Source: Arenicola marina (taxonomy: Eukaryota > Annelida > Polychaeta > Arenicolidae). From it: 64,000 nt of DNA. This document shows, piece by piece, positions 7,583 to 53,284 of this stretch. Made by a program: the position numbers and the translations under genes. Positions within the stretch are counted from its first letter, which is position 1. Each line of letters opens with the position of its first letter. The DNA lies in NCBI GenBank assembly GCA_964019135.1, contig CAXHSH010000416.1, forward strand, positions 1,153,201-1,217,200. Reading direction: 5' to 3'. The notes under the pieces are model-generated. The model ran no database searches. It was not told where the DNA came from and saw only the letters and a list, made by a program, of their open reading frames with translations.

Positions 7583-7923
7583 ATATAATAAACACATGTT
7601 TGTAACAATTAAATATTGCTGAACGTACGCTCGCGTATGTCGCTAAATTTCTACCAACGAGCCCGTTCCGCATTTTGCCAAGCTGAAGGTTAGTCGTCTG
7701 CTGCCAATGGAGCGTTAGCATGAAGACATTTTGTTTGTGTCATAAAAAAGGATAACATCGCAGTACAAATGTAAGTTTTGCATCATTAAAATTCCACGGT
7801 GTTGCTTTGTCCTGTCAGTGATTTTTAGAGCGATCGCGGTTTTACGGAAAATATGGGCCAAAACGTGAGTCTACGGCATTTATGACTTTGACATTTTTTT
7901 TAGTCCCGTTACGTGCCAGTTTT
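7583..7923. other. Flank of the 15-kb transposon; no firm gene
   Basis: Unique-looking sequence. ATGGGCCAAAAC followed by GTGAGT at about 7853-7870 would make a four-codon first exon starting Met-Gly (a myristoylation-type start), but this is only a splice-like string. The last bases (AGTTTT) form the left target duplication of the adjoining element. Confidence 0.3.
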
Positions 7924-8345
7924 TATCGCAAGCCGTTTTAATAAAAAATCACCAATTCAAGATATCTTGAATTCAATTTCAGATATCTTGAATTCAATTT
8001 TAGATATCTTCAAATCATTTTAAGATATCTTTAATTCAATTCCAGATATCTGAAATTACTTACTACTTATCCCAATTTCAATTGTATTCCAGATATCTTA
8101 AATTGAATTGAAGATATCCTAAAATGATTTGAAGATATCTTGAAATCACACCTATTTTTTATGAGGAAAAATAGATGTCACATATCCATAATTGAATTGA
8201 ATATATCTTGAAATCACACCTATTTTTATGAGAAAAAATAGATGTGTCACATATCCATAATTGAATTGAATATATCTTGAAATCACACCTATTTTTATGA
8301 GAAAAAATAGATGTGTCACATATCCATAATTGGATTTAGGATATC
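7924..8345 (+). repeat. Left terminal inverted repeat built from AGATATCTTGAATT units
   Basis: After the terminal TTATCGCAAGCC there are about ten 21-23 bp units around AGATATCTTGAATTCAATT. They are followed by three copies of a longer unit (near 8140-8335) with AAATCACACCTATTTTTATG and AGATGTGTCACATATCC. The same blocks occur inverted at 22558-23048. The GATATC-centred units are themselves near-palindromic and are candidate transposase binding sites. Confidence 0.85.
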
Positions 8346-8395
8346 TAGAAAGAGGGCGCTGTTTTGAACACGGAGACCCATCTCACGTGATAACA

Positions 8396-11300
8396 ATGGC
8401 GGCGCCTAGCACGGGTTCGGTGAAGGCTCGAATGTTGCGATCGCTCCGTGAGGCTGAGCTCGTTTTGATCCATGGCGATAACCAAAGGGCTTATAATATG
8501 TTGTCCGCAGTACGAAATAATGTGGATCGTATTTCGTCCTATTTCGACGAAGCCGCCTGCGCCGAAGCGACCGGAGCCATCGATGGGCTCCTCGCCCTTT
8601 GTCAAACTCCTGACAATTCGAATACGGAAGGGGATGGACAACAACAGGAGGACGGTATAGCCTTCCATGCTGTAGCTAGGCAAACCGGTAAGGATTCAAC
8701 AATATAACGTAGCTAACACTCTGTGTCGCCGTTCGACCGAAGATTCTAAATCTTCTAACTGCACCTCGCTCCAGTGTATTATCAAAAGCAACACTTGCGC
8801 TGAAGCCATGTGACATCAACGACCTGGCTATGATAGATCTTTTGTGACATACATACCTCAACTGACTTATATGAATATTTTGGAAAGCCTTACAAAGTAG
8901 TGTACAAAATAGCATGTATACACTAAAAATATATGTCTGATTGTATGTATCAATTCATATACATGAACAGGCGAGAGAGGGAGACCCCGTCTGGAGATTT
9001 CGAAGCAGCAGCTAGAAGTATTTCTAGAAAATGGGTATACTGCCTCTCGCATGACCCGGCATTTCGGCTGCTCTACAGCACTGGTATATCGCCGCCTGTA
9101 TGAGAACGGGCTGAGATGCCGTGCCAAATACAGTGACATTTCTGAGGATGAACTACAAGGAAAGGTTGCTGACATACACAAACAATTCCCAAACAGTGGC
9201 TCTGAGGTATATATGGTATTTCATTAAAACATGTAGATCTATATATTTTATTGTCTGTAACATCGTGTGAGTATATTGCATTACCTAAATTCCACCAGTG
9301 TAAGGTATGGTTGTACAGTCATATCATATCAATGGAACGAAGGAGAGAGCAGAGTCCCCCCCCCCCCTCCCCCATCATTGTTACGGAACATCTACTACAA
9401 TATGACTAATATATATATTCATTATAAATCTTCATTACCCAATGAATCTGTCATACTAAATAGCAGTATATGTACTCCATATATTCATGTTATGCAAGTG
9501 GTTATTATACAAACAGGAAATCATTTGATTTGATTTGATTAATATGTAACAGGTAACACATAAAAGGCGAGCGTATAGCCTCTGTAGCAATTTTGTTGGA
9601 CCAAAGCCCGTAACAAAAAGACAGATTTGTTTGTGATAGCTGACCAACCTATTTTGTACAAGAACTATTTAGTAAGGTGGAGACGTTAAATTGTAACATG
9701 AACGAAACTTAAACTCTCGGTCAACTATTTCCAGGATCCCTTATTTTTCACATAACCGTGTATGTTAACATCCTTTTTAGATGATGAATGGCTATCTTAG
9801 GGCAGAGGGCCTCATGGTTCAGAGGGCTAGAGTTCGTTCTGTCTTGAATGCGCTCGATCCAGCACCCGCAGCCAGCAGATGGGGACAGACTGTGTCGCGG
9901 AGGTCCTACAGTGTGCCATCGCCAAACAGTTTATGGCACATTGATGCACATATGAAACTGAACAGGTAAGGGTACATGTGTTCCTTTATTGAAGCCGTAC
10001 ACTTGTAAACCATGATGTTCGAATAATGTATGTCTAATAGCGCCCCTGAGATTTCGGGCTGGGTACTTCGAGGGAAAGAGTCCACTACACTGCTGTGTCG
10101 CTAAGGACGACACCATAATACCATGTTGAACTGTATAGTTATTACTGACAGAAGTTGAAAACTTCTCTCAGTATACTGCTATGTTCGGTTTGTAAATTTA
10201 TTTGTTTGTTATGGCGAAAATCGCCATCATGTCAGTCAGTTCTGTTTGTGTGTGTGTGCGTTGGTGTGTGTCTATCTGTCTGTCTGTCGTCACGATAACG
10301 GTCGAACACTTGCAGCTATCGTTGTCAAACTTCGCCAACAGATGCCTGAAGTCTAATCTCAGGTCAAGTTCGTTGCCGGATGAAATCAGTCAAACGTCAA
10401 CGTCACGTTTTCAATTTTTTAGCTATCGCCCTAGGATATTTACCACAGACTTGGGCATTAATTAGGACCAAAGGCTGCGATATATATTTTTGAGGACCAT
10501 CTTTAATATTTCACTAAAACCGGACTAGCGGTTATGACGTAACTGCTCATTTCATTTTGAAATTAAAGAAATTCACGGTGCCCTCAATATTGGCCGTACA
10601 AACTTGAAAATGGTATGGGACACAGAGAAATTGTATTGCCCGTCAGGGAAAAATATGGTTAAAATTCGCCGTGGTGACACTGTTTGGCAAATCGACTAAA
10701 ATACCATTGCAATGGTAAACTATACGGCCTTTCCGTTCGCCTAACGCGAATCTCAGGTCAAGTTCGTTGCCGGATGTAATCGGCCAAACGTCAACGTCAC
10801 GTTTTCAATTTCTTGGCTATCGCCCTAGGATATTTACCACAGACTTGGGCATTAATTAGGACCAAAGGCTGCGATATATATTTTTGAGGACCATCTTTAA
10901 TATTTCACTAAAACCGGACTAGCGGTTATGACGTAACTGCTCATTTCATTTTGAAATTAAAGAAATTCACGGTGCCCTCAATATTGGCCGTACAAACTTG
11001 AAAATGGTATGGGACACAGAGAAATTGTATTGCCCGTCAGGGAAAAATATGGTTAAAATTCGCCGTGGTGACACTGTTTGGCAAATCGACTAAAATACCA
11101 TTGCAATGGTAAACTATACGGCCTTTCCGTTCGCCTAACGCGAATCTCAGGTCAAGTTCGTTGCCGGATGTAATCGGCCAAACGTCAACGTCACGTTTTC
11201 AATTTCTTGGCTATCGCCCTAGGATATTTACCACAGACTTGGGCATTAATTAGGACCTTATCTTTAATATTTCACTAAAACCGGACTAGCGGTTATGACG

Positions 11301-13310
11301 TAACTGCTCATTTCATTTTAAAATTACCGAAATTCACGGTGCCCTCAATATTGGCCGTACGAACTTGAAAATGGTATGGGACACAGAGAAATTGTATTGC
11401 CCGTCAGGGAAAAATGTGGTTAAAATTCGCCGTGGTGACACATTTTGGCAAATCGACTAAAATACCATTGCAATGGTAAACTATACGGCCTTTCCGTTCG
11501 CCTAAAGCGACCCCCCCCCCCCCTCCCCCTAACGCCACCCCCACTCCCGGCCTTGCCTGCCAATACACACACAGGGTTGGCACTCCTGCGTAAATCCGCT
11601 AAGCCCGCCAATACACACTCGCCTGCAAGTCCTGAACCTCTTCGCTGGCGCACCCCCCTCACCTACACCCACACCCACCCGCTTCCCCTCCCCTCACCCA
11701 CACCCACCCCCTTCCCCGCACTCCTACCCTCTGTACTGCTGGCCACTCCGCTACCGGTCAGCTAATTTCTGCATGGTACTGTTATCGTGAACCGAGCGCC
11801 GACCCACCCCCCACCCCACCGCCCTTACCAGAGGTCGAGGTGACAGCCCTGATTTACCCAATAAAAACTCTATTCTGCCCAAATTGTCAACTGAAGGCAC
11901 TAATTGACCCTCAGATCCAGATTTGACCCCTCAGCTCCATCACATCGGGATGTCAAATATGGATCTATGGGGCGGAATCTGGATCTGAGGGGGTCAAGGT
12001 CACGAAACAGGTTTTCCCTCGTAACTCCATTAATATTGGGTCTAGAGATTGGCTGTTTGTTTGAGAGTATTCCAGGGGCAGAGGCAAACGGGTATTACCT
12101 GCTCAGATTTTTCCGTATACTGACAGATTTTCGAGTAATCGGCCAATTAATGGTAAATCGCCACAGAATTGCTCTAGGACGCTTAGTTTGGCCGCTAGAG
12201 CGCTCGCAAGAGGTGCACCCCCCTTTGCTGAAGCTCCCATCATGACGTGATGACGTCACAGTTTCACAAAGGTCATTACTCCGGTATTATACGTCATCGA
12301 CTTCCGGTTCATCTGACGTTATACCTTATATCAAGGGAAAACTGCTACCGTGCGTAACTTGTTTTGCTTTACCAAAACGGTGCCACAGACGTGTGCGTCA
12401 CAGATGACGTCACTTCTGTCAGTACCTCAGCCTACGGCTGTCTTGTTTTATTTCAATATTCATTTCTTTGTTGTCCCTGGTCTTGCTTGATTTATGTTAT
12501 TTTCTTAACCTGGTGTTTTTCACTCATCACTCCGTCTTTATTTGCAGATGGGGGTTTGTAACGAACGGTTGCATCGACGGTTACTCCAGACTCATTACAT
12601 ATTTGCACTGTGGTACTAGTAACAAAGCAGATGTTACCTTGGATTTGTTTCTGGAGGCCTGTAAACGCTACGGACTTCCATCGCGAGTGCGTACAGACCA
12701 TGGAGGAGAAAATATATTAGTCGCAGTCTTCATGAACATGATGCATGGACTTAACCGGGGAAGTCACATAGCAGGCCAATCCGTTCATAACATAAGGATC
12801 GAAAGACTGTGGTATGATGTTTTCAAAAAAGTCATACAGACAATCTACAATGAATTGTATCAAATGGAAAATGCAGGGACCCTGTCTCCAGACAATAACT
12901 ATCACTTATATGCACTACACTTTGCGTACCTGCCACACATCAACAAGCAGCTGGAAACATTCGCCAAAGCATGGAACAAACATCGGGTGAGAACAGAATG
13001 CAACAGAACACCGGAACAAATATGGATGGATAGTGCCCTTCAAAGCCAGAATGCCGATAACCGGGCGATGGACGGCGTGTTCAGTTCCACGTTTGAAGCG
13101 CGAATCAGGGAAAGATTTCAGCGATACAGATTGGAAGAGTCTGCGTCAAGTGAGCAACAGGAAGCAAATGCAGGAAGAAGTCGCCGTAGCGTTTCGCTAA
13201 CGCCTGAACAAATTGAACAACTAACATTGTGTGCGCAGAACTCAACTAGTCCAAAGGATGTTTACATATCCTGTGTTGCCAAGCTCGACGAATGGAGTCT
13301 TAGGCTCTGA
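8396..13310 (+). CDS. rve-type DDE transposase (IS3/integrase-like), four exons
   Basis: Exons 8396-8687, 8971-9206, 9781-9965 and 12548-13310 join in phase (1, 0, 2) with GT/AG borders and give about 491 residues without a stop. Exon 1 codes for a helical N-terminus. Exon 2 has a helix-turn-helix-like stretch ([20 protein letters not shown], then [13 protein letters not shown]). Exon 3 ends in [13 protein letters not shown] with the first catalytic Asp. Exon 4 has [17 protein letters not shown] (second Asp) and HNIRIERLW (Glu), spaced D-56-D-34-E. It then has an HxLRTE-type C-terminal helix region ([20 protein letters not shown]). The enzyme should cut and join DNA in the nucleus. The start is chosen at ATGGCGGCG, 50 bp inside the left inverted repeat. 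Intron 3 is swollen by tandem repeats. Confidence 0.88.
10355..11505. repeat. Three tandem copies of a 394-bp unit
   Basis: AATCTCAGGTCAAGTTCGTT starts units at 10355, 10749 and 11143 (exact 394-bp steps). The second is nearly identical to the first. The third lacks about 30 bp (the AAAGGCTGCGATATATATTT part) and ends before a poly-C run at 11510. Each unit ends with TATACGGCCTTTCCGTTCGC. Confidence 0.92.
11508..11840. repeat. C-rich low-complexity block
   Basis: Runs of C (up to 13) and CACCCACACCC motifs. Spurious proline-rich open frames appear on the plus strand. No gene is supported. Confidence 0.7.
12150..12420. repeat. Dispersed repeat with TGACGTCA palindromes
   Basis: AAGGTCATTACTC..TTATACGTCAT..GACTTCCGGTT here is matched in reverse complement near 31840-31930 (GAGTAATGACCTTTACC, ATGACGTATAACAGC). 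Both copies carry several TGACGTCA or TGACGTCAC strings (cAMP-response-element-like). No terminal repeats were identified. Confidence 0.55.
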
Positions 13311-13693
13311 ATTGTAATATAGTAACAACTGCGGAAGTGTTGATTAGGAGTCGGAATATTCTGCAGCTCGACATCGTCTCATCTGGGAAACCCACAGTCG
13401 CGCTTATTTTGTGATATTTCTACCATAACATAAAATGAACATGGAATTAGCCTGAATGTATTCTCTTTATTTTTCTAATGTACATGACCTGACGGACCAA
13501 GATCAATGGCGTACACATGCATAACAAAACCCCTGAGGAATTGATTTAGTTTAGCTGCGGTTTAATGTTAGGGACGATATCGTAGCCCAAACTTGTCTAA
13601 TGTTGGTTGAGTGTTTCCTCTCAATATGTCAGTTTGCCGACCTAATTAGTTGTTCCCAGACCAAAATAACATTGAACTCCTATGACAAAAGTC
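13311..13693. other. Convergent intergenic gap of the transposon
   Basis: This 383-bp gap lies between the stop codons of the transposase and the HECT gene. It is AT-rich with no ORF. Both 3' untranslated regions and poly(A) sites should lie here or overlap each other. Confidence 0.5.
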
Positions 13694-16600
13694 TTATTCT
13701 TGTCCGAAAGTCTGACTGTTCAGGATCAGTTCGGTGAATACTTGCACGGCTTCATCTGGGAGGCACGATTGTCTCTTTAGTGTCATCGTGAGTGCGCAAG
13801 TGTTCACAAATGTTTTGTCGCCAAAGTAGACGTCCACGTCCTTGTGAAAACCGACGGCCGGCACCTTGGTGGCTCCCGTCAGCCACATTAGCACATGCTC
13901 TGTAGCCACGTGGACTCCGTTGTAAGTAGTTTCGTCACCTGGCAAAGGTAAAGATATTCGCATGAACCGTGTGTCAAGATTGCAACGGAGCTGATGCACA
14001 AACTACAGTCGTTTAATTGACATCATTGTGGAATTGCAAAATGCCTAACCATATAGGATTTATTATGAGAGAAATCTCCGATTTTCCAGGTAACAATATG
14101 CAATATGTTATCTAATATACTGCAATGTTATTTTTTTAATTAAATTTTTCTGAAAGCTTACTTTTGGTCGCTTGAATGAATGATAAGAACTCTTGAGCTG
14201 TTGACATGTCTTGTCTCCTCACATTGTCGTTTTCCGCGTAGTGAAAGCGAAGGATGCGCCGCAGAGCAACAGGGGTGATGGGTTGTAATGCCCCGCTGAA
14301 GAGGCGACGAGCGGCAGGCACGTGTTCTCTATCTTGAAGTAGAGACAAGACCTGGCACACCTTTAGACCTGAGGATAGACAAAAGGAATATGTAACGTCT
14401 CCGTTGTTATATAATTACGATGCAGTAACGTGCCAAGCAACATTTTGGCATGTTGTCGCAAGTTAATATATTTCATATATCTGCTTATCAAAGTTTTATA
14501 ATTATTTTAAAAGGTTAAGCGCATCACGGAGCCCCATCTCATTTTACCGGCATTTTCATTACCTTCCTTAAACTGTTGGCGTTCTTCCGCGCATGATGTT
14601 ACTAAGTCTTCTACGAGCGCAACTTTTAACGTTGCTATGTGCTCTTTGGTGAACTGGTTGGCAGGAACGATGAAGCCTGCTTCCGCGGCGATGTCAAACA
14701 TTTCAGAATAAATACCGCCGAGTTCTCCTTCGCCGGCATTTTCCATCTGCAGAAAACAACCCCAACAGTCGAAACCAAACCAACATCAAATTTAAACGTC
14801 AGAACATCTAACTACCTTCTTGCTTACTCATTTACTTTTATGTTTATGCCCAAACATACATCTCTAACTATGGCAGAGTCTCTGGCCCACATATCACTTT
14901 CTTTGGTTGTTTACTGGGTTCTCTGGTATGCCGTGACGTAATATTGTTGGTTGGCATCCGTCCGTCTGCGAAGAACGATGGATTTGCAGCTTTGATTTGC
15001 GTTAAGCAGTAAAAATTGTTTTACGACATTTGCGCTTGTGACTAAATAAGCCTATCTATGGCCGACAGAGCTTACCACAGTCTTTACATGGATAACCTGT
15101 TGTTTGATCTTGGTGATTACTCACTAGACGTCTAGATTGTTGATTTACGCAATGTTGCAACAGACCATTGAAATTACCCTTTTTAGTGTATCCTGAATGC
15201 CACTTGGCAAGTCCAAAGTGCTGTGCGACTTGATGCTGTCCTGTAGTAAGAACTGCACGACTGCGTCAGCGAAGACTGGAAGTCCTGGACCATCCTGCAG
15301 GATGCCTAGTGCCACCAACTTTCCGATGTAGAGGAATGTCTTTTTCTTCAGTTGAAAGAAATTGCGTCGAAACGTCAGTTTCCCCGGTTCTCCTAAGAAG
15401 AAGAGGTCTCAGTTTTTTTTACATCTGCGACACAATAGTATCATTTTCACAGAGGACAAGATAATGCAGCAGTAAAACGTACATGTAACAAGTTATGCTA
15501 TTTATGCGAGCCCCAAATTCGGATAAGCGAAAGAAACCTGAAACCTGAAATCAAAGCAACCTGAAACCAAAGCAACCTGAAATCAAAGCAACTTTTATAC
15601 AAAAGCTGTTATCAACTTCGATTAATCGCAGGCCAGTTTATTGGAAGTTACGGTTAAGAACGTATATACCCCAAATAAGGATATTCCTGGAAATTGGAAG
15701 TCGAACTCTGATAACAAAAAATTGTCACCAATACAAGGTGCATTCCTTACCTTTTACGTAAATGGAGTGCACCAATTGGTGCAAGAAGATGGACCAAAAT
15801 TCTCTTCGTGGGCCCCCCAAGTCCACCCCTTCCTCCCAGACGAATAAGACCTGAAGAGCGTCGTGCAAGTTTGGCAAGTATCTCATCATGACTATCGCGT
15901 CATGAAGTACAGCCTCCCTTCGGACCTCCATCAACAGCACATCGTCGCCGACATTCGATATCTCTTCTCGTCTCCGTGTCAGTAAAGCTGCCTGAAGGCC
16001 ATCCATCGCAATTCGTGCAACTGACCGCCTTTCTCCTGGCACTGCCTCGTCTATAAGCTCGTCCACCAGTGGAGCTGCCCAGTCAGTATCTGGCACTTCA
16101 GCCATCATATCGCTGGTTATGCTCTGTTCAGATTAAGAACAATAATTTATCACATGTAATATCCACTTTTGGGCTGCTTCAAAGTTCGTTTAAAGCAAGG
16201 TATCAGGCGCAGTAAAACACTACCACTCGGTAGCAAGCTATGATAACACCGTATATCATCGTATGTATCCCTAAACCTGTGCAATAAAAAGCGGACTACA
16301 CACACCTCAGTGACATGGTACACTAAGCTTCCAACCAACAACCGGCTGTCAAATAAAATATTAATACTAAAGGAAATAACTTGATAAATAATTTGCAACG
16401 GACAACATTGAATAAACATACTTATCTATTATTCAGAACTAAGGGATCCGTTAAAAAAACGTCGTAAATTGTTATTATTATTCATAATATGATGTCAAGT
16501 TATGAAATATTGAGTACCGTCCTATAATCATTAATAACACTAAACTGGCAAGCAACAAATACAGGGCAAGCCAATATGATTCCAAAGGGTCAATAGCAGA

Positions 16601-19600
16601 TTGTGTGATACCACACTGCATATGTTAACAATATGGGATTATTAACTGTATTTGCATACATTGGAGATGTTACATTATCGTCATTAACTTCAAAGGAAGA
16701 AAAAAGTCAAATGTCTGCATGAGGATCTCTTATGTTAATCTGACAACCTTCACATGGTAGAAGTAACCCTATGACCCCACTTTGCACTTGATCCGTGCCA
16801 TTGACATCTATTATATAACATATAAAAAATGTAGCCATTACGATATAGTATGACAAATTGTTCTGTGTGAAAAAAATATTAAATTATTGGTAAATAAACA
16901 ATTTGAAGAGTATGAAAAAAATGCAATTCCCAAACTATGCTTGAGATGGACTTGATTTTACAACATATGCATGCATGTTACCTTAAGAGCTCGATTGCGT
17001 TCGCTAATAAATAAATAAAACTACGCAACTAACAATTTTAACAAAAATTAACCAGTTGATCTCTTCACGTAATGTCATAACGAGTAGAAAGAAAGCAACC
17101 CAAAACTAAAACTAAAGTGCACGTATACCATGAAATCGAAAGACTGCACATTTCCTGGATAATGTGAAAATACCATATATATTATTCCATCGTCACTCTT
17201 CTAGAATCCGATAACAATAACAAGAATTCAGTGGGACACTGTGAGTAAATGAGTAAATTCTGTGTTTGCAAGAAAAGCTATTACTTCTGGCGGCGAAGGA
17301 TTGCTGACTGCTAAGCGGATTTATAGAGAAAATGGCGATTCTTGACGTCCATATAAATTTGAGGAGTCCGCTATGCAGCGTCAATGCAGTACACCATCAC
17401 AAACAGCGTTGTTTAAGGCATAAATATTGAAATTATTGTAATTAGTGTAACGAGACCTACAGGGTGAAACATTGCTGACTGCTTAGCGGCTTTCTGGAAC
17501 TTACCCGAGATATCTAGCTCCAATATTAACCGCGTTCTTATTTTTGTTTTTCCAAAAATCGCTGTGACCTTAACCTCTCACCTACATATGCCATTAACGA
17601 ACTTGACCTAGCGATTTTACTTACCGTGCTCGATTTCGCCTGCGTGCATCGGGGTCTCGTGTGACGAAGTTACCTTTGAAAATGGAAAAAGTAGATCAAA
17701 TGTAACTCTCTGAACAGTAAGTAGGCCAGGGTACAGTTTGGGGAGTTGCCAATAGTGCAGAACTGATTCATGGTTATCTGTCAGAACATAAGCATGCCAT
17801 GTAGTTGTCTTGAATTTGGGCTACTGTACAGGCCCGTTGGAAGATGGGGGTTGGGGGGGGGGATATATACTCATATACGGCCTCTGCCCCACTCCAATCC
17901 TATAATTTTACAGTGTGCTTCCAACGAGCCTGCTGTACTGTATATAACCGTTTTTATAAATTACAGTACTCACAACAAGCAAGTCCCGCGACTCCTCACT
18001 TGGGCGCCCCTCATTCGCTCCAGCTAGAAAACATAAAAAGTGTCAGTCAGGACCGTCCTAATTTAACTTAAGAACTGGCCTGACACAAATATTGAAATCA
18101 AAACACTGCTGCGCTGTATACCAGGTCGAGAATGATAGTAAAATCGAAGTAAAATACTTCAATTTTGAGAACAAAGAGCCCATGTTGCTGTATTATGGGT
18201 AATGTCGGAAAGTCATCTTTACCTTGTTCGATTCTTGCATCGATGGCTACTTCACTTGGCCGCTCCACCTGCGAGGAAAAAACGCTAAAAATGAAGGAAG
18301 GCGTGCTTTAGAAGCTTACTTGAGTGGGTTTGTTTATGTGTTTGAAGTTGTGTAGGCTAAACTCTAGTCATAACAAGGTATAACATAGCCCCCAAAAATG
18401 TATAGGTTACACTGTCCGTAAGCAAACGTATGTTATTTAAAGACTATACAACTTACCGAACTGTTCGAATGCCCTGCTAGAGGCGGTGTCAATACATTTC
18501 TTCATCATCACCGGCATTATTCGTAGGTGCTACTGAAAATTGTCATGGTATGCTCGGTTACGAAATATATATATATAGGAAGCAGGTGAAATGTTACTAC
18601 TGCATATACGGCCTCAGAAAATTAAGGCAAGGCGACCGCAGAATGTATAGAAGTATAGAATATTTCACTCTCACCATACCAAGTCATTGCCAGTAACAAG
18701 CGATACTGCGTCTACTAGGTGTATACTGTACTTGTCATGGTGGTAGCTAAATTCATTTGCAATATTCATAATTACCATTGTTGTTATCACGTCTCTGTCT
18801 GAACTGCACCTCCGGGGTGCCGGCATCGAGAAATCTGTCAGCCTGAAGTGACGAATCCTGTAATTGACGAATGACAGTACAGAATAGGTTAGCTATAAAT
18901 ACATGTTTAGACTAGGTGAGTGTGAAGGGGAGGCAGCCTACTGTCTAAGGCAGTCTACTGACAAGGCATACCTTTCACCCAATTTCATCTCTATTTTCTC
19001 CTACTTTTTTACATCAATACGAATCACACCTAAAAGTGCCTGCCGTGGCAAACAGGTGGTACGTGTCATATTCTGAAACATTGACGACAAATGTCACAAA
19101 AGCCGCACATCACAATTGTTGAATACCCAAAAACAAGACAGGGCAAGTAACGTCCAGCTTTCTTACCTGAGGGATTTCAGCGTCGCGTTCTAACAGGAGA
19201 TCCCTCCTGGCGGGTAAAAGAATAACTTTTCCTTTACCCACCAGCTGTTCCAGCTGAGCCACAGTCTGGAAGGGTTCGAGTTCCCGGAGTTGGCGGCCCT
19301 TGTCGCATTTAGCGAACTTTATCCCTGTACTTCCAAGGGGCTGATTCGGATACATTTTTATTATCTCCTCCTCGATGCGATCACGACTCCAATCCCTACG
19401 TAACATGACAGGGGCGGGTCCGGGTTTACCTATATCAAAGGTGTAACATAAGGATAATGATAATGTTCAATCTGTTCTTGTAATAGGAAGTTTGTCCCAG
19501 AAATCCTTCCACTGACATTTATTTATGAATTTTTTTTAACCGAAATGGATCTTCTTTGAGCCTCTTAAATGTTCAATGCAGCGCGGTTCTGGTCTAATCA

Positions 19601-20635
19601 GGCCAGCTTCGGTCGAACGAAGTACCTGTCAAGGGTCAATAGCCGATGTCTATCTTTTCTTGGCGTGTAATTAAACAAAACATTTTACGAAACTAGCTTA
19701 CATACTCATAAGAACGCTGCAAAATAAGGAACTACCTATAGTATGTTGTGTTGTATTCTTAGTCAAATAAAAGGATAGTCTCTATAGAGCTTCTGGTTTT
19801 ACTGAACACCTACCAAAACCATGGGTTTGCAAAAACCGACATTCAGGGGCACTTGGAAGGAAGTCAGCACATTTTCTGCGCAGCAAGAACACTGACGCCT
19901 GCCATGTTGGCTGCTTCCTTCTGCCACGACGTCCACCTGCCAGTGAATTGTAATATTAACACAAAACGAGAAAATACATTAGATCTAAAAAATATTAGCC
20001 AGGGCTCATGCCAGTCCACAAGACAATGTTTTAGACATTATCAGGTACATGTTAGAAAGGCAACTGCCTACTTCTCCGAGCACAGTATGAATGTTCTTTA
20101 AGGAGTGTCTGCACATTCGACAAAACGAGTATGCAGTATTGCCAATTTGTCGAAGATGGAAAACTGTAATGTAACATGTGTATATAAGTTGTGTCCCGGA
20201 GGGCATTGCCTTGTAAATTGTATGGTTAGTTGGAAATTCAAAGGTAATACAGGCAGGCCATCGAACTTGCATACCCTGTTAGCGAAGTTGGGCACCATAT
20301 ATCTAAAGATTTGAGGATGTATCTTCTTCTGTTATATGATAGCTCAAGCTCATAAGCATAAAATATTTAAACATTGACATGATTAGTAAAACTTTTTTGT
20401 TTACTTTTTTGTGGCAAGGTCGAAACTTACCATTTATGCCCCCAACACTGGCTGGTCGTCTTCTGAAGCTCTGCCGGGTGATATTGACGATACTTTGAAA
20501 ATCCTCAGCATTGTCTTCTCGCGCTCTTATCTCAGTTATTGCATTAGTAGCAGCCGAGATAAGGCTTCGCACAGTTTCTACTCTACCAGTAGCAGTAACA
20601 TCATTCTGTGTGTCTATGGTAGCTGGGGCAGACAT
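13694..20635 (-). CDS. HECT-domain E3 ubiquitin ligase-like protein encoded by the transposon (G2E3-like)
   Basis: Minus-strand exons joined by phase: 20635-20431, 19936-19814, 19429-19167, 18857-18810 (end uncertain), 18268-18223, then an unresolved part, 16123-15751, 15392-15178, 14746-14563, 14368-14162 and 13938-13694. The first exons give a helical, then basic stretch (GRRGRRKQPTWQ) and KPGPAPVMLRRDW. The last five form a HECT domain: VLFVWEEGVDLGGPRREFW opens the N-lobe, then FYLxxGKLVALGI-type helices. The C-lobe has WLTGATKVPAVGF and TFVNTCALTMTL, whose Cys codon at 13798-13796 is the expected ubiquitin-accepting residue, ending NSQTFGQE. HECT ligases pass ubiquitin from E2 to a target through this cysteine. 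No frame break is seen in the HECT exons. The exact internal exons between 18223 and 16123 are unknown. Confidence 0.85.
16124..18222 (-). other. Large intron region of the HECT gene, possibly hiding small exons
   Basis: The exon at 18268-18223 ends in phase 1, but the exon at 16123 must be entered in phase 0, so at least one small exon is missing. A candidate is about 17683-17635, between tttcaaag and GTAAGT, reading VTSSHETPMHAGEIEH in one frame, but its phase does not chain simply. The rest is AT-rich, with a G run near 17855. No other gene was seen. Confidence 0.4.
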
Positions 20636-22557
20636 ATCTGATGATTCCTTATTTAACGAATCATATATATGTAACCGGTATACAATAAGAATCATTATTA
20701 TTAATAATATTAATTATGAACCCAGTATTCATCCAAAGACAGTCTTTATAAAAAAAAATGTCTAAGAGAAAATCTTGTAAAATTTTATCCCAGGAAGGAA
20801 CCAAATTGTTCAAGTGCTGATGACAGGTAAAAGATTTTTGAAAACAGTGGTTCAATTAACACAGCCCAGGCCTAAACTTGGTGATGTGTATAACCCTAGA
20901 TATATGATGACATGTCAATGGCAGTAACATTCTTCTAAGTTATGAGCCTCAGTCAACTTCTGGGGGCTTGAAATTTAGCAGTCTATACATATATAGAGAA
21001 AATCTCTGTGACACAATCAACATTATGAAATGGTTTAAAAACCTTGGCTTTATCCATTCTAACATATAGCAAAAGTAATAGATTTTTGTGAACATGAAGG
21101 ATGAAGTTCAGTTGCAAACTGGGCTACCAGCTTTGCCGATACTGGTCATCTAGCATAAAATGTGGTTGCCACAGGGGTGAGTGGGAGTAATATCTATCTG
21201 TGCCGGAAGTAAAAACAAAATTTGTTAAGTGTAAAAATGTAAAGAATTTAAGCAGTATGTAAATCTAGTTCAAATATTTTACACTGGGAGCTGTCGAAAT
21301 GGACTGAACATCCACATCAAAATTTGCTATTCAAAACCTTCTTGTTGACATCCTTGTCCTATTAGGCAAGTGGTTTTGATGTCAGAGCAACTGTCAAGAC
21401 CCTCCTTAACACATTCTCATTATAATTTTAAGAACTATTTTATTTAACTATGAGCTTATACTTTTATAGAATCTACCCTTGTAAGGTAACTAAACATGCG
21501 TAAGAATATTTGTGTATGAAGCTGACAGGCCTCTGTACAAGTTACCATGCCTGTCTAACTCCTCACCAGGTGCCATTACAGCCAGGCAGCATTATCCGTT
21601 TTTGTGGTGTACGTTGTAGCTTATACAGTGGCAAATGGCGCAGTTGTCAAACCAATCCGTGCAGAAAGAGCCCTGACGTTGCAAGTTAAGACAATAAAAT
21701 GAGGTACTTTCTTTCCGCCAGATCTGTAAATTGCATAAGGACTCTGGAAACATATATATTTTGTCGGCTAGTGAAGGACTGTGCGCCCAATACATGAAAT
21801 ATGCGTGGCACACCACAAAACTCACAGGGGCCGCAGATCGACTGACACAGGCCGGGGGGTGGGGGGCGCACCACTTACATAGAACAAGCAGTGCGCAACC
21901 CCCATCCCCCCTCCACCTGTATTTGTCAATCTGCAGCGCCTGTGGTGACACTGCAGTAGCGCAAAGACAACAAATTCTCCCTGGCTCTAACGGCACCCCG
22001 TGATTAGCCGCAAGCGACCCCATTAACAGTTTCTCAGTCTTAGATGGGTACCAATCGGGGTCCCTCGGGGCTACCTCGTGATAAGAGTAGACTTAGAAGT
22101 TAGAGGCAGGCTTGATACAACCGCAATTCTGGCCTATTATCGCTCAGGACACAATATAATAATTAGCTTGGGTTACAAATAGGACTGAGTTGCAACCTCC
22201 TAGGCCTATCACTGATAGTGTTGGTGTAACGTTATCACTAGTATTTACCACCCCTGTGTTAAGAAAAGTTACAAAATATTCAAATAGATCACAATGTGCG
22301 TGGAGAACGTCGCCTCGAATGCTTGTGCCACATTTGAGTCACATACTCTCACACTCTCAAAGTATGCGAAGAACATATATTCTACGTTAGAAACGACGGC
22401 AAAATATTTAAATCGCTATATATAAAAATACGAATTGTATAAATATATATATATACTTTAAAAAGTAATGATTGACTGCCTTTTATAAGTAGATCTATGT
22501 GATATTCAATCTTATGACACTCGATCGATGGAGAGTATACTTCCGGTCTTTTGACGG
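20636..22557. other. 5' flank of the HECT gene to the right inverted repeat
   Basis: Mostly AT-rich with stops in all frames. It should hold the promoter of the HECT gene. The only notable coding-like segment is the cysteine-containing frame at 21592-22023. TATATATATA runs occur at about 22420-22455. Confidence 0.4.
21592..22023 (-). CDS. Cysteine-rich ORF inside the transposon, possible third gene or upstream exon
   Basis: A 143-codon frame from MGSLAANHGVPLEPGRICCL. It holds a CxxC near residue 19, further cysteines in GGCALLVLCKWC, and a second cysteine cluster (FCTDWFDNCAICHC) near the end. A perfect GTAAGT donor lies inside, after LLVL, so the real exon may be shorter (about 22023-21880), and a good acceptor (atttacag) lies at about 21725. 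The two halves do not join in the same phase. The paired cysteines suggest a small zinc-binding module, but I recognise no family. It may be chance. Confidence 0.3.
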   Translation of the reverse strand: MGSLAANHGVPLEPGRICCLCATAVSPQALQIDKYRWRGDGGCALLVLCKWCAPHPPACVSRSAAPVSFVVCHAYFMYWAHSPSLADKIYMFPESLCNLQIWRKESTSFYCLNLQRQGSFCTDWFDNCAICHCISYNVHHKNG

Positions 22558-23048
22558 GTATTAAAGATATCTTGAATTGAATTCAAGATATCTCAAATTC
22601 AATTATGGACATGTGACACATCTATTTTTTCTCATAAAAATTAGGTGTGATTTCAAGATATCTTGAAATGATTTCAAGATATCTGAAATTGAATTCGAGA
22701 TATCTTAAATTCAATTATGGATATGTGACACATCTATTTTTTCTCATAAAAATTAGGTGTGATTTCAAGATATCTTGAATTGAATTCAAGATATCTTAAA
22801 ATTATTTCAAGATATCTGAAATTAAATTCGAGATATCTTAAATTGCATTCAAGATATCTGCAATTGATTTCAAGATATCTGAAATTGAATTCAAGATATC
22901 TTGAAATCACACCTATTTTTGATGAGAAAAAATAGATGTGTCACATATCTTTAATTTAATTTAAGATATCTTGAATTAAATTCAAGATATCTTTAAATAA
23001 TTCAAGATATCTTGAATTGGTGATTTTTTATTAAAACGGCTTGCGATA
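22558..23048 (-). repeat. Right terminal inverted repeat of the 15-kb transposon
   Basis: Mirror image of the left end: AAGATATCTTGAATT units, three blocks with CTCATAAAAATTAGGTGTG or its complement, and the terminal GGCTTGCGATAA. The number and order of units differ from the left end, so the arms are matched by repeat type rather than base for base. The unique-looking terminal block of about 45 bp is nearly identical at both ends. Confidence 0.85.
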
Positions 23049-24990
23049 AGTTTTAACAGTTTAACAGGTGTCCAGTCGTACCTCCCTCCTTGCCTGACAA
23101 CAACAACGCCACAAGGTTGGGGCTAGGTCGGCACCTAGACTCCGTGGCCACACGAGTCTAGTGTAGTTGGACTAATGTAACCATGACTAACATAGACAGT
23201 GAGTGGCTCAAATGCCAAACAATCGTCCTTTAATGGCTTTATGACCGTAAAAATGGATGACAGTAATATTCTGCTTACCGATGATATTCTTGGCCCATAA
23301 ATTAAGATATATAATTCCAGTAACTGAGTAGCCTACCTTCGCCCCAGGGACTGGGAGACAATTGAAACGAGATATCGGTAACTGATTGAAATAAGCTAAT
23401 TAGCTTACTTTTGTTTAGGGAGGTTTAGGGAGACAAATAAAACGAGATATCTTGAATCTCTAAAGCCAATAGAGGCTATTGATGTTGATTTATGAACCGC
23501 ACCATAATTTCTCACTCCCAGCTCACGAAAAATTAGTTTGCTCATTCCCAATTCACGGTGAAATGGAAAGCTTGTTCCCGACTAACGGCAATACCCACTT
23601 CCTCCCGACTAACGGCGATACCAACTTGCTGCCCCCACCCCCCAGCAACCCCCCTTGGAAGGGTCCCATCAGAAAAAAAGTAGGCCATATGTTTTCAACT
23701 ACAAGAAAGAGTTATTACACACATCTGGTGGAGGGGATCCGCGGTGCATTGATGCCTGAGAGAGCGCGCATATGTGGGATGCAAAAGATACTCCTATAGA
23801 GCAGATATTTATAAACTTGCGACCCGAGGGGGGGGGGGGGGGGGGTGTGTGCTCTGAAAGTGTGCGTTTATTCATTTCGTGGGCGGATTTGGTATTTATA
23901 AACTTGCGACCCGAGGGGCGGGGGGCGGGGGGGGGGGGGGTTGCTCTGAAAGTGTGCGTTCATTCATTTCGTGGGCGGATTTGGGCGATCAAAAAAACGG
24001 GCAGGGGGGCTTACTGCGGAACCCCCACCCCAAACCCAGCCCAACAATGTATTAAGTACCCCCCCCCCAACCCCCCCAACCCCCGGATGCAGATATGAAA
24101 ATGGAGCTACAAGGTTTTTATTTCCGGAATGAAACAGCTACTGGGTAAACGGTAAACTTGAAAGGTAAACTGGTGTCCATAGTCTTCAATACCAGTTTTC
24201 TCCGATGCTCAAAGCATCTGTATCTGAATGGCATGAGAACAAAGCTCCACACATTCTTATGTAAACCCGCCAAGACTACAACATACATGTCGACCTTGAC
24301 GCTCGTACCAGTTTTAGTATCGTTCGATTCGTACCGCATATTCGAGAAGCAACCCCTCTGCGCAGCCTGCAATTCTGGTTCTAGAATCGAACGCACTCTT
24401 CCTGACCCGGTTCTTCGTATGCGCCGTTGTGTACTTTAAAGCGGGTGTCCAACCTAATTTAATCGCGATCTGCACCAAAAGTTTACATCTTGATATTAAA
24501 TTGGCGAGTGTTAACGCTTCGTTTCGGCCGACTGGTAAGGAGAAAAAAATTAAGGCAACCCGCTCCCAGCAGTGACGCATATTGTGACTATTCATATGGC
24601 GCGGCCTTACGTTATAACTCGCGGAGAGAGAGATCAGGGCCGCGATTTACAGATGAACAGCAGCAGTTCCAAGCCGCGCAGTAGCGCCAGATCTTAGCGT
24701 TTCATGGAAGAGTCCAGTCCAAACAAATTGATATACGTCTTGCGACGATTGACTCTGCAACAATGCCATGATTGGAGTTAGCATCGCAGCTATTTATGTT
24801 AGCGATTATCACGCGCTCTTGTTTTGCTCACACAATAGGCGTAATTTCCGGTTTGAATAAATTAGAGTATCGCCTCCTGATTGGTCAATCCCGGACACGC
24901 CTCCAAAAAGGGCTGCCGCCTGGGTAGGCGGCGAAATCGTGCCTGGCGGTCACTTCTAAATTTTATTGTGAGCTACAGATAGAACGATAA
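23049..24990. other. Region right of the transposon: G-runs, short duplication, no recognised gene
   Basis: 23500-23660 has short repeats (ACTAACGGCGATACCAACTT type) giving a spurious frame. A segment of about 85-95 bp with TTATAAACTTGCGACCCGAG and CTCTGAAAGTGTGCG is duplicated at 23808-23890 and 23897-23990, each copy with a long G run. C runs follow near 24060. Overlapping open frames on both strands at 24118-24600 match nothing I know. Confidence 0.4.
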
Positions 24991-25019: not shown

Positions 25020-27675
25020 TTGGTAAAGCAGCGTTAGAGGCCAGGGTGGCGGTTCCCTTTAAGACGGAGTTAAGTAGAGGTACTGAGTTTGTTAAAAACT
25101 ATGACGATGATTTGGTTTGGCTTAAACTAAACGGTTAATTTTTCGGTTGGCAGAGGGATATTATTTTGGGTTTATGCTATGTTGTGCCCGATGATTCATC
25201 CAGGAAGAAAGTGTCTGATTTTAATGCTCTCAGCCAGGTAACTGACGATATTGCCCTCTTTGAGTCCACACGTGGGGAAATGGATTATATGTTGGTTGGT
25301 CGTCACTAAATGATAAATTGGCCACCATTGAAGAAATTGTATCAGACATTGGCTCCTGTAGCAGCGCAGAAACGATTGAGGATAAGATACGCAATCTCAC
25401 CGACGTTATTAACGATGTTGCTAAACCTCTTTTCCTGACGGGAACCAAAAGCACGACAAGCAACACGCGAAAACTTAGACCAGCATGCTACAGCGCGTCT
25501 GTTGAACAAAATCGAAACAGCTTCATAAGGTGTCTGAATTTTTATAGAAAGCGCGGATCTGATCAGGATAGATGTGATATGATAGCAGCTGGAAAGGCCT
25601 TTAAGGAAGCAGTCAGATCACATAAGTGGGAACGAGAGAAGAAAGATACGCAGGCCCTACTTCAAGCACGGTATAGGAACGCCAAACTATATTGGAAGTT
25701 ATTAAAAGGAGTAAAATCTCGGCGTAAGAATACCATTTCTTCGTCTTTTATGAATATATCAAGGGTTTAAATACTCCGGACTATGATGTGGATGACGTTG
25801 ACGCGTCAGTTGCAAGCGTTGTAGATGGCGATGTTGACAAAATTTATTTAGAGCTTAGCACTGAGTTTGTGTATGAAGATATCTGTAACGCGGTCTCACA
25901 ATTAAAACTCAACACGACTCCAGCATGTGACCTCATTATCAACGAGTTTATTATACACGGAATTGATATACTTGTCATTCCCATAACGACACTTTTTAAC
26001 CATCTCTTGATGAAAGGTTGCTTCCCTAGTGTTTGGTCGGACTAACTGGGATGATGAATACGGTATCCTGTTGGAAGCGCAGGCAGGTTTCCATTAGACA
26101 TATAATTATTTCTATCATATATTTGTACTTCAATGTGTCATGCTTTAGAACCGGGGCGTCGTCTATATTGCGCTTTTATCGACTTCAGAAGAGTAAATAG
26201 GAAGTGTCTGTGGTTTAAGTTAATCAAAATGGATTAAGGGGACAGCCTTTGAAGGTTATACAGAATATGTACAAACAGGTCAAGTGCAAAGTTTTACATT
26301 GTGATGGCACGAGCTTCGACTCTGCTATTGGAGTTCGGCAAGGCGAGACAATATCTCCCTTTTTGTTTTCTATGTATATAAATGACATGGAGGAATATAA
26401 TAGGAGACACGGGGTAGAAGGAATCTCCATAGGACAAACGAAGTTATTTTTATTGCTGTACGCTGATGTTGCTGTCTTAGTCTGCGAAACTGAGGAAGAG
26501 TTACAGAAGTCATTAGATGCCTTAAAACGATATTGTGACGAGTGGAATATAGTAGTTAACAGTGGCAAAAGCAAAGTGATGATTTTTCACAAAGGAGGAA
26601 GTCTACTTAAAAGCGTTTTATCACAATTTAGGCGTTGTATTGTCCTCTCCTGGCAAATTTTAACAAACGCAGAAAACTCCAGCTGATCAAGCTACGAAGA
26701 CTTTATTCCAGATGGAGAAATATATCTGTAAATTTCACCCTCTCCGTCCTACCCATCGTATGGAGTTATTTGACAAATTGATAAGCCCAATATTGAATTA
26801 CGGTGCAGAAGTTTGGGATTTCCATACTGGCCAGGCAATCGAACGAACTCATACTGAATACTTGAACAAATCTTTGAAGGTTAAAACCAGTACCCCAAAC
26901 CATATAGCTAGGAGTGAACTCGGCAGATTAGACATGAAAACTCAGAGGTTGATACAAACAATCGGTTACTGGGTAAAGGTTATACATTTGAATGATTCAC
27001 GGTATGTTAAGCGATTGTATAAGGTGCTGTTGGAAGATTTAGAGTTAGGACGACGTAACTGAGTGTTGCTGGTACGTGATTCGCTAATGTCGCCCGGGAT
27101 GGGGGATGTCTGGCTATGGCAGTCCGTTGGAGATATCCAGGCGTTCATGTACCTCTTTAAGCAGCGGGCGAAGAATTGTTATTTTCAAACGTTACAAGCC
27201 GAGCTATCGGAAACCTCTCGTGGTACGCAATATTTACAATATAGTGTTTTCCCATGCTTCCCTCATACTTTGCTACTGTGGAAAAGAACAGATTTATGCA
27301 TTCTATAATTAAGCTCCAAACCTTTAGCCACCGCCTCCGCATTGAAACTGGGAGATGGCACAAGCCAAAGCCACTGCCCGTGGAAGAGAGGCTGTGTAGC
27401 GAGTGCGGTTTGTTAGATGACGAAGTCCACTTTTTTCTTGTATGTCGCTTGCACGATAATCTCAGGGAGAGCTTAATCCCACCGTATTTGTGGAGACTAC
27501 CAAATAAATTTTTAGCACTAGTTATGTCACAGAGCACAAAATTACGGAACAGATTGTCTGAATGTGTTTATCTGGCCAGCAAGATGAGAGAACCACGTTC
27601 CAGTGTAGAAATTCATTATGCGTATTGCATTTTTCAACACGAGGGCCTCGGGCTCATTGTTGCTTTGAAATAACT
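25020..27675 (+). pseudogene. Degenerate APE-type LINE (endonuclease remnant, reverse transcriptase, C-terminal zinc finger)
   Basis: Pieces in order. An endonuclease remnant with LGLCYVVPDDSSRKK (about 25167-25215) and a break. A linker (25318-25767) rich in basic helices. A fragment with EDICNAVSQLKLNTTPACD (fingers). The reverse transcriptase core has AFIDFRR, GVRQGETISPFLFSMYIND and LLLYADVAVLV, then NSGKSKVMIF; the catalytic YADD is YADV here. Thumb and tail include ISPILNYGAEVWDF and a CxxCG..DDEVHFFLVC zinc-finger-like end (27395-27450). Stops and frameshifts lie near 25768, 26045, 26235, 26684 and 27060, so it is dead. LINE proteins nick the target and copy their RNA there. The clade (CR1/Jockey/I group) is not fixed. 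Confidence 0.85.
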
Positions 27676-27931
27676 TTGACTTCTATGTTGTCAATGATGA
27701 GTGCCGGCTGTCGGGGACGTTCCTTCCGCTAATATGACCTGTTGTCACACGCATATTTTAGCAGAACTTGATAGCTGAGTCTTCAATTCATCGTCGACCT
27801 TAGGGGTGCTCTTGGGTTTCTTCTTTACCGCTGCCACCATGTCATGTTCTCTTGCTCTCGTTTGTTAGACAGCCGGTACAAAAAGAAATCAGATGCAGTG
27901 TAGAACTAATTCCTGTTTAGTTACCATGTAT

Positions 27932-27964
27932 GGGTGCAAGAAATAGTTCCACAATATTATCACA
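27932..27964 (-). repeat. Inverted LTR-start fragment
   Basis: These 33 bp are the exact reverse complement of 29660-29692, the TGTGATAATATTGTGG... start of the LTR-like flank of the adjoining gypsy element. The copy is in the wrong orientation for a normal 5' LTR. It therefore suggests a nested or inverted second element, or a rearrangement. Confidence 0.8.
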
Positions 27965-27980
27965 CTACTAAACCTACTGA

Positions 27981-29496
27981 TTGGTAAATAGTCTAGCGTA
28001 TAGCCGCAGGAGCAATGTACAACTTCGCATCTGCATAGATACTAAAGACTTGAACAAAACCATAAAGAGATGCCATCATCGCACCCCTACGCTGGAAGAA
28101 ATGAAACACGAGTTGGCCGGATCCAAGTATTTCACTAAACTTGACGCAAGAAATGGATATTGGTCAGTTGAGCTTGACCCGGAAAGCCAACTCTTCACTA
28201 CTTTCAATTCCCCTTTTGGCCGTTTTTGTTTTAACAGAATGCCATTTGGATTAGTGATGAACCAAGATGTCTTCCAGCAGAGGATGGACCAAATATTGGA
28301 GAAACTCCCCGGGACATCAGGTATCGCCGATGACGTGGCAGTCCACGGTAAGACCGAAGAGGAACACGACTCCAATCTGCACAATATGATGAAAGTGGCT
28401 GCAGAGAACGGTCTTGTTTTCAACAGCAACAAGTGTCATGTCAAGGAGAAGAACATTACCTTTTATGGACTTGTTTTTGATGCAGAGGGTGTACATCCTA
28501 ACCCTGAGAAAGTTGAAGCGATCAAGTATCTCTAACCCCCAAGTAGAAAAACTGAACTAGAAGAATGTTTGGGCATTGTGACTTATATGTCCTCATTTAT
28601 ACCCAATTGATCACAGCTCACAGCACCCCTACGATACCTGTTGAAGAAGGATGCAGAGTTCCAATGGTCGGGAGTCAACAGAAGTCTTTCGAATCCGTGA
28701 AGCAGCTGCTGTGTAAAGAGACAACCTTGGTGTATTCGATCAACGTAAGGGTACAGTCATTCAAGTTGACTCATCCTCCAGGGGTATCTGAGCTGTTCTA
28801 CTGCAGGACGACTGTCCTGTGGCATTCGCTTTGAAATCACTCACACCAACAGAGCAGCGCTGTGCAAACATTGAACACTTGTTGTGGTTTTTGGCTGTGG
28901 ATTTCGAAGCAGTAGGAAGATACAAGGGAATCTGCCTGTCAAGTCCAGAAACAATTGTTATAACAGGGATCTGATCCATGAGAGGCTGCACCAAAGACAG
29001 GAACAGCAGAAATACTATCCTGACCAGAGGGCATGCGATCTACACCCATCTACACCCACTACAACCGTTGGTCAGCCAGTAGGGATACAAACACCTAAAT
29101 CTGGCCAATGGGAACCAGCTACTGTACAACAACGAAGCCCAGAACCACGGTCATATTTTGTCGCTGGACTCGTTCTTCGGCGCAACCGACAGCAGATCAT
29201 GGACACACACCCAAAAGCGAAGCGGGTACGTTTTGCTGTTGAGCCGCCAAGTGTGTCTCCATATTCTGAACATTCACCTGCGGGTCGACAGAGTGTTGAC
29301 ACTCATCCGCTGTTGCCATGCAGTCCTCGGAATCCAACAAAAGACGACCGATCTAGCAACACACGAGGCTCTGCAAGCAATGATCCAAACATCCAGGAAT
29401 GCGACAGCACAATCTCCAACACTGAATATCAGACGAACTACCGACCCTGACATGGACGTAAAATACGGAAACACGTACGTCCGTTATGAACAATAA
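27981..29496 (+). pseudogene. Ty3/gypsy pol remnant: RT, partial RNase H, integrase C-terminus
   Basis: A 184-codon frame (27981-28532) is a gypsy reverse transcriptase. It has LRICIDTKDLNK, then YFTKLDARNGYWSVELD, then RFCFNRMPFGL and GIADDVAVHG, which fills the YxDD place as IADD. After a stop near 28533 the frame is broken. An RNase H piece (TVIQVDSSSRGI, then PVAFALKSLTPTEQRCANIE) is seen around 28750-28890. The sequence then jumps to the integrase C-terminal region (QKYYPDQRACDL, PVGIQTPKSGQWEPATV, PEPRSYFV, LRRNRQQI; about 28980-29200). The rest of RNase H and the integrase core with its DDE are missing. This is an internally deleted, non-autonomous copy. Confidence 0.85.
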
Positions 29497-52800: not shown

Positions 52801-53284
52801 GCAATACCTGAGCAGAGGTCAGCGAGCCCTCCTCGCACAATTCAGGTGTGGTATTTTACCGTTGGAACTCGAAGCGGGGAGATTTAGAACGAAGAAAGAT
52901 CAACACTCTAACCGGTACAGGAGGAGGGAAGCGCATGAACACTTACGTCAGATATGCTCATCCGGGGAGGTGGAAGATGAGGTACACTTTCTTTGCTGCT
53001 GTCGGGAGTATAGTAGTCAACGTGAAAACCTGTATCGGAAAGTATCTCATCCTGATTTTATGGCCCTGTCTAACTATGATCAATTGACTCATCTAATACA
53101 AAACTACTGGAAAGAGGTAGCGCAATTTTTAAGCAATGCATGGATGTCCCGGCGTAGTTTGTTATATAACTAAGACATAAAAACAAACAAACTTCAACTT
53201 CAATTTAGTCAAATACTATTATTGTATCGTATTGATTTATTTAATTGAATTGAATTTCTTTTTCTTTCATTTTATTTTTCTTCG

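Follow-up and report, generated by a model that had tools for sequence, protein, structure and literature searches.

Complete transposons of the IS3EU kind are described, in the available sections of the source, as having TA..TA termini and usually 6-bp target site duplications (TSDs), and as inseparable from GingerRoot in a phylogenetic tree (PMC10045372). In fungi, the available part of a second source describes TET+ IS3EU elements in which a TET/JBP gene sits between the genes for the transposase and an alpha-kinase, the latter two in opposite orientations, and reports that TET/JBP genes have moved between transposon lineages (PMC12730594). Here we analyzed a 64,000-nucleotide stretch of the genome of the annelid Arenicola marina (the window; contig CAXHSH010000416.1, positions 1,153,201 to 1,217,200), which contains a DNA transposon of about 15 kb with two genes on opposite strands. 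Its sequence marks it as an autonomous-type member of the IS3EU/GingerRoot DNA transposons, with a putative HECT ubiquitin ligase as its second gene. We give a probability of roughly 0.78 to the reading that the element is real, that the pairing of transposase and HECT genes is recurrent, and that the HECT protein is useful to the element; what the ligase targets is excluded from this figure.

The element spans positions 7924 to 23048 (15125 bp). Position 7924 is the first of its left end, TATCGCAAGCCG..., and 23048 the last of the mirrored right end. The terminal inverted repeats (TIRs) match perfectly over 50 bp (TATCGC...GCGATA, termini TA..TA), and the 6-bp duplication AGTTTT borders both ends. 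An earlier note on this DNA had proposed a complete element of about 15 kb with matching ends and a short target duplication, both resembling IS3EU, and these points were borne out. The TA..TA termini and TIRs, the rve-kind DDE transposase and the 6-bp TSD (exact in 8 of the 11 elements read in the genome, that of the window included) fit IS3EU/GingerRoot and so support the assignment, whereas Ginger1 has a 4-bp TSD in the available text of PMC10045372. The features of the element are:

7918..7923, no strand: left target site duplication, AGTTTT (sequence read)
7924..7973, plus strand: left terminal inverted repeat, 50 bp, perfect, starting TATCGC (end comparison; genome matches)
7953..8351, plus strand: left subterminal tandem arrays of a 21-bp unit (palindromic core AAGATATCTT) followed by a 69-bp unit
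8396..8687, plus strand: transposase exon 1 (frame and GT donor)
8971..9206, plus strand: transposase exon 2 (gene model)
9781..9965, plus strand: transposase exon 3, with the first catalytic D (HID) (gene model)
12548..13310, plus strand: transposase exon 4, with the second D and the E (gene model)
13694..13938, minus strand: last HECT exon, with the NTCAL Cys666 and the Phe at -4 (gene model and homologues)
14162..14368, minus strand: HECT exon (gene model and homologues)
14563..14746, minus strand: HECT exon (gene model and homologues)
15178..15392, minus strand: HECT exon (gene model and homologues)
15751..16121, minus strand: HECT exon of the N-lobe, EEGVDLGGPRRE (gene model, homologues, structure match)
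16982..18532, minus strand: six short putative HECT exons, 18512-18532, 18457-18473, 18223-18268, 17974-18023, 17625-17673 and 16982-17003 (frames and splice signals only)
18776..18857, minus strand: putative HECT exon (gene model)
19167..19429, minus strand: putative HECT exon 3 (gene model; 99.2% like the C3 copy described below)
19814..19936, minus strand: putative HECT exon 2 (gene model; identical in the C3 copy)
20431..20635, minus strand: putative HECT exon 1, with ATG (gene model)
22560..23019, minus strand: right subterminal tandem arrays with units of 21 and 112 bp
22999..23048, minus strand: right terminal inverted repeat, 50 bp, perfect (end comparison)
23049..23054, no strand: right target site duplication, AGTTTT (sequence read)

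The four transposase exons encode 491 aa with D231, D288 and E323, spaced by 56 and 34 residues, in agreement with the rve-type D-56-D-34-E triad first noticed. The protein matches Pfam rva_4 (E 5e-87) and, at 30.1 bits, under the 32.6 cut-off, rve (E 6e-7); no HHCC zinc domain matched before the core in the Pfam scan at E up to 1. The HECT gene is convergent with it, tail to tail across a gap of 383 bp, and is modelled as 15 exons encoding 699 aa with a C-terminal HECT domain. The final five exons are backed by homologues; the earlier ones are a model, weakly supported for the six short middle ones. The cysteine of NTCAL noticed on the opposite strand is indeed kept (Cys666), and its column is invariant in all six rows of the HECT alignment. 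Also kept is the Phe at -4 (in the QTFGQE end), a residue important in HECT ligases. Structure prediction supports the two-lobed HECT fold; the model of protein P0003 is poor overall (mean pLDDT, the predicted local distance difference test score, of 48; residues 1-339 below 50), and its HECT part still matches HECT structures. The Pfam scan gave no domain besides HECT in the window protein. Homology of the N-terminal HECT exons with P0003 or the fish protein P0005 was considered and found unsupported (best E 0.65, residues 1-200), and scans of viral contigs using P0003 and the transposase exon found no relative. Inside the element there are also a tandem array of three 394-bp units within transposase intron 3 (10355-11510) and, in the right part, a minus-strand open frame of 166 aa with no Pfam match (21592-22092).

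Searching the 867-Mb genome with the outermost 30 bases of the end (at most 3 mismatches) gave 144 matches, and 0 in the reversed control. Short and long elements were paired by hand among the end matches listed, and further long copies are possible. The 34 short elements so paired (367-2674 bp, median 1344) resemble common non-autonomous copies, in that none of the transposase or HECT matches from the genome searches falls at them, as judged by match positions and not by interiors. At least two copies are long, that of the window and one of 15852 bp (the C3 copy). The earlier note would have counted copies with the same ends and no HECT gene against the pairing; both long copies hold it. Among the 11 elements read, an exact 6-bp TSD is lacking in the C3 copy, which has none, in L037/38, where 5 of 6 bases agree, and in L043/44. 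The C3 copy is collinear with the window interior (96.7-98.5% identical across long blocks) save for one deletion, one insertion and one end duplication, and retains all four exons of the transposase gene plus HECT exons 1-12. Two adjacent or nested elements, one bringing the transposase and the other the HECT gene, might also produce such a locus, and the interior is rich in repeats; however, there is one TIR pair with its TSD, and the arrangement is repeated in the C3 copy and at other loci, which leaves this explanation with very little probability. Two insertions joined by chance are likewise unlikely given the C3 copy and the recurrence, so that the single element first proposed stands, although the C3 copy itself has no TSD.

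We searched the genome for the two genes independently of the ends. The Pfam rva_4 search gave 83 matches at 60 loci, a lower bound since 150 of 236 candidates were scored, and searches with the HECT family, the window protein and P0005 gave 43 HECT loci (44 table entries). A HECT match lay within 12 kb of 15 of the 60 rva_4 loci, convergent at 13, where 0.07 such coincidences would be expected for independent loci. That these HECT loci are host genes in transposon-rich regions agrees with a transposase match being near only 14 of the 44 HECT entries; the excess over chance argues strongly the other way, and we consider this explanation scarcely tenable. We also read 4 kb on the 3' side of six transposases for which the family and window-protein searches had shown no HECT, and found convergent HECT exons at five of them:

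C9:31.74M: E 6e-32
C1:24.28M: E 1e-25
C6:44.12M: E 8e-10
C8:24.96M: E 1e-7
C2:28.79M (weakest): E 2e-4 to 6e-6

The C9 and C1 HECTs were also recovered independently by the P0005 search. The HECT profiles were partly built from this genome's copies; as controls, the remaining 40.9 kb of the window gave no HECT, nor did reversed sequence. Of two HECT hits in other flanks, one belonged to the HECT of the C17 element itself (its upstream part) and the other lay at a locus chosen for its HECT match. After the reading of flanks, 18 of the 60 rva_4 loci are paired, 16 of them convergently; of the remaining two, C9:1.54M is a remnant, and the other is the transposase at C3:54.24M, counted with the HECT of the adjoining C3 copy. 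The window protein alone found nine HECT places in the genome. The earlier note would have counted HECT genes of this type outside elements against the pairing; seven of the nine places lie beside an rva_4 transposase, and two, both on C373, do not. A one-off capture of a HECT gene is made unlikely by the cross-tabulation of transposases and HECTs, and recurrence beside distantly related transposases suggests that the ligase helps the elements rather than being a chance passenger.

The two genes seem to have had different histories. HECTs 60-63% identical to the window's accompany transposases whose identity to that of the window is only 36-40%. Nonsynonymous divergence (dN) of the HECTs is 0.30 between window and C17, 0.26 between window and C18b, and 0.33 between C17 and C18b; for the transposases the same pairs give 0.80, 0.59 and 0.17. 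Had both genes travelled jointly, the C17 and C18b HECTs would be the closest, but they are the farthest, and hence exchange between lineages probably occurred, with either gene as the mover. This argument relies mainly on the dN values; the trees, which use partial rows and contain long branches, agree in outline, with the HECTs of window, C17 and C18b forming a clade (100/98; inside it, window plus C18b 94/89) and the transposases of C17 and C18b forming one that excludes the window's (100/100). Synonymous divergence (dS) of the HECTs is saturated in all three pairs; since dN is far below it, the comparison points to long-term purifying selection on HECT between element families. The earlier note had proposed comparing HECT dN/dS between copies; the two are about equal within the window-C3 pair, and constraint appears between families (dN 0.26-0.33). 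A captured host HECT gene carried along without use would fit the lack of constraint in the window family, and host genes do get captured by DNA transposons, but such a passenger sits badly with the same convergent place recurring beside divergent transposases and with constraint between families; we hold it to be quite improbable.

Several findings weigh against a recurrent and useful pairing. The window HECT alone falls under the Pfam HECT cut-off (15.9 vs 23.9 bits), which is a curated threshold and not a biological feature; its relatives P0004, P0005 and P0129 carry a precomputed HECT domain. The C3 copy has lost HECT exons 13-15, has a one-base indel in each gene, stops and no TSD; all dN and dS values between window and C3 are about 0.01, and this pair is, on these values, in neutral decay with no selection visible inside the family. 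Independence does not hold for the 18 paired loci, since window and C3 belong to one family and C17, C182 and C20 look like another; C3:54.24M is paired only through the neighbouring copy's HECT. No HECT is detected at 42 of the 60 rva_4 loci, among which only C8:6.64M was read in its flank, with no HECT exons within 4 kb beyond the transposase 3' end. Conversely, at 30 of the 44 HECT entries, some of them host genes, a transposase match is lacking within 12 kb; these include the window-type HECT on C373. Both ends and TSD are mapped for the window element alone among paired loci. In the trees, the window transposase is placed among sea urchin, abalone, fish and insect proteins without resolved forks, and the window plus C18b HECT fork (94/89, from partial rows) falls under the starred level.

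Subterminal arrays with 21-bp units, differing in sequence between elements, occur at both ends in the window, C613 and C2, and were seen only on the transposase side in C17; C13 has a 22-bp array at both ends. A palindrome of 10-12 bp lies within three of the five units, and one of only 4 bp in the other two. Such arrays may offer sites on one helix face for the transposase or a partner. No array of this kind was found in C10 and C18a within the stretches read, nor an exact TSD in C613 and C2, and C10 was dropped as a bounded element after 19 kb were read without convincing inverted ends.

Further observations concern the searched loci. The two C373 places (7795-8199 and 69175-69579) are equal-score HECT matches in opposite orientation. 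Eleven rva_4 matches on one strand of C8 (24576970-25003677), spaced by about 39-48 kb, resemble a tandem array of large units; adjoining a transposase of this array, at L064:607-2043, 479 uninterrupted codons form a HECT-like open frame that has a Cys within RTCT close to its end. In L060, L055 and L061 joined (9649-11185), 29 tandem copies of a 53-bp unit have frames similar to part of the N-lobe HECT exon of the C17 element. Elsewhere in the window there are reverse transcriptase frames at 26219-28535 and 49890-53173, the latter preceded by an endonuclease frame, as in non-LTR-like retroelements.

As to function, the HECT protein would be made along with the transposase, be charged with ubiquitin at Cys666 by a host E2, and hand this on to some protein that keeps the element in check. 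The proposal that both genes serve transposition gained support for the use of HECT from its conservation between families; for transposition itself, we infer that the ligase aids the element. Since the pair seems reshuffled between transposase lineages, the target is expected to be a host protein and not one particular transposase: we see about even odds for two candidates taken together, a nuclear host protein acting to silence or restrict the element and a repair factor acting where the element is excised, with the element's own transposase a distinctly weaker second guess. Ubiquitination of the transposase could keep its level down, as the tail-to-tail arrangement within one element would allow; such self-limitation is hard to reconcile with similar HECTs being paired with dissimilar transposases if each must recognise its own, and appears unlikely. 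More tentatively, and with odds somewhat short of even, animal transposons of the IS3EU type may carry a HECT ligase as a standing second gene, one that is passed around among transposase lineages and needed against a ubiquitin-sensitive host barrier to transposition. If so, a DNA transposon superfamily would work via the host ubiquitin system. With its kept catalytic residues and its recurrence beside divergent transposases, the ligase offers a direct way into the limits on transposition in animals: its substrate would reveal the host factor or step concerned. Some multi-copy animal HECT genes could also be transposon genes instead of host gene-family expansions.

Accessory genes occur in several eukaryotic DNA transposon groups, and we found no ubiquitin ligase among them in the literature searched. 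That search, with most subscription papers and Repbase outside its reach, found no paper pairing IS3EU with HECT and none combining IS3EU, ubiquitin and transposase; broader searches gave nothing relevant among the matches listed. With NEDD4/RSP5, HUWE1 and UBR5 the window protein shares the HECT fold, at about 15% identity in structural alignments. Closer are HECT-like proteins of bivalves (Mytilus, Saccostrea, Dreissena; predicted proteins only), 45-49% identical by BLASTP and with the NTCAL Cys. Among transposons, IS3EU/GingerRoot elements share with the window element, in the available text, the TA..TA termini, the 6-bp TSD and the integrase-like DDE transposase, and differ in that the main text contains neither "HECT" nor "ubiquitin" (PMC10045372). 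Both words are likewise absent from the main text on the fungal TET+ IS3EU elements, which, as far as that source is available, resemble the window element in a second gene opposite to the transposase and in an accessory gene that crosses lineages, and differ from it in belonging to fungi and in carrying a kinase and a dioxygenase in place of a ubiquitin ligase (PMC12730594).
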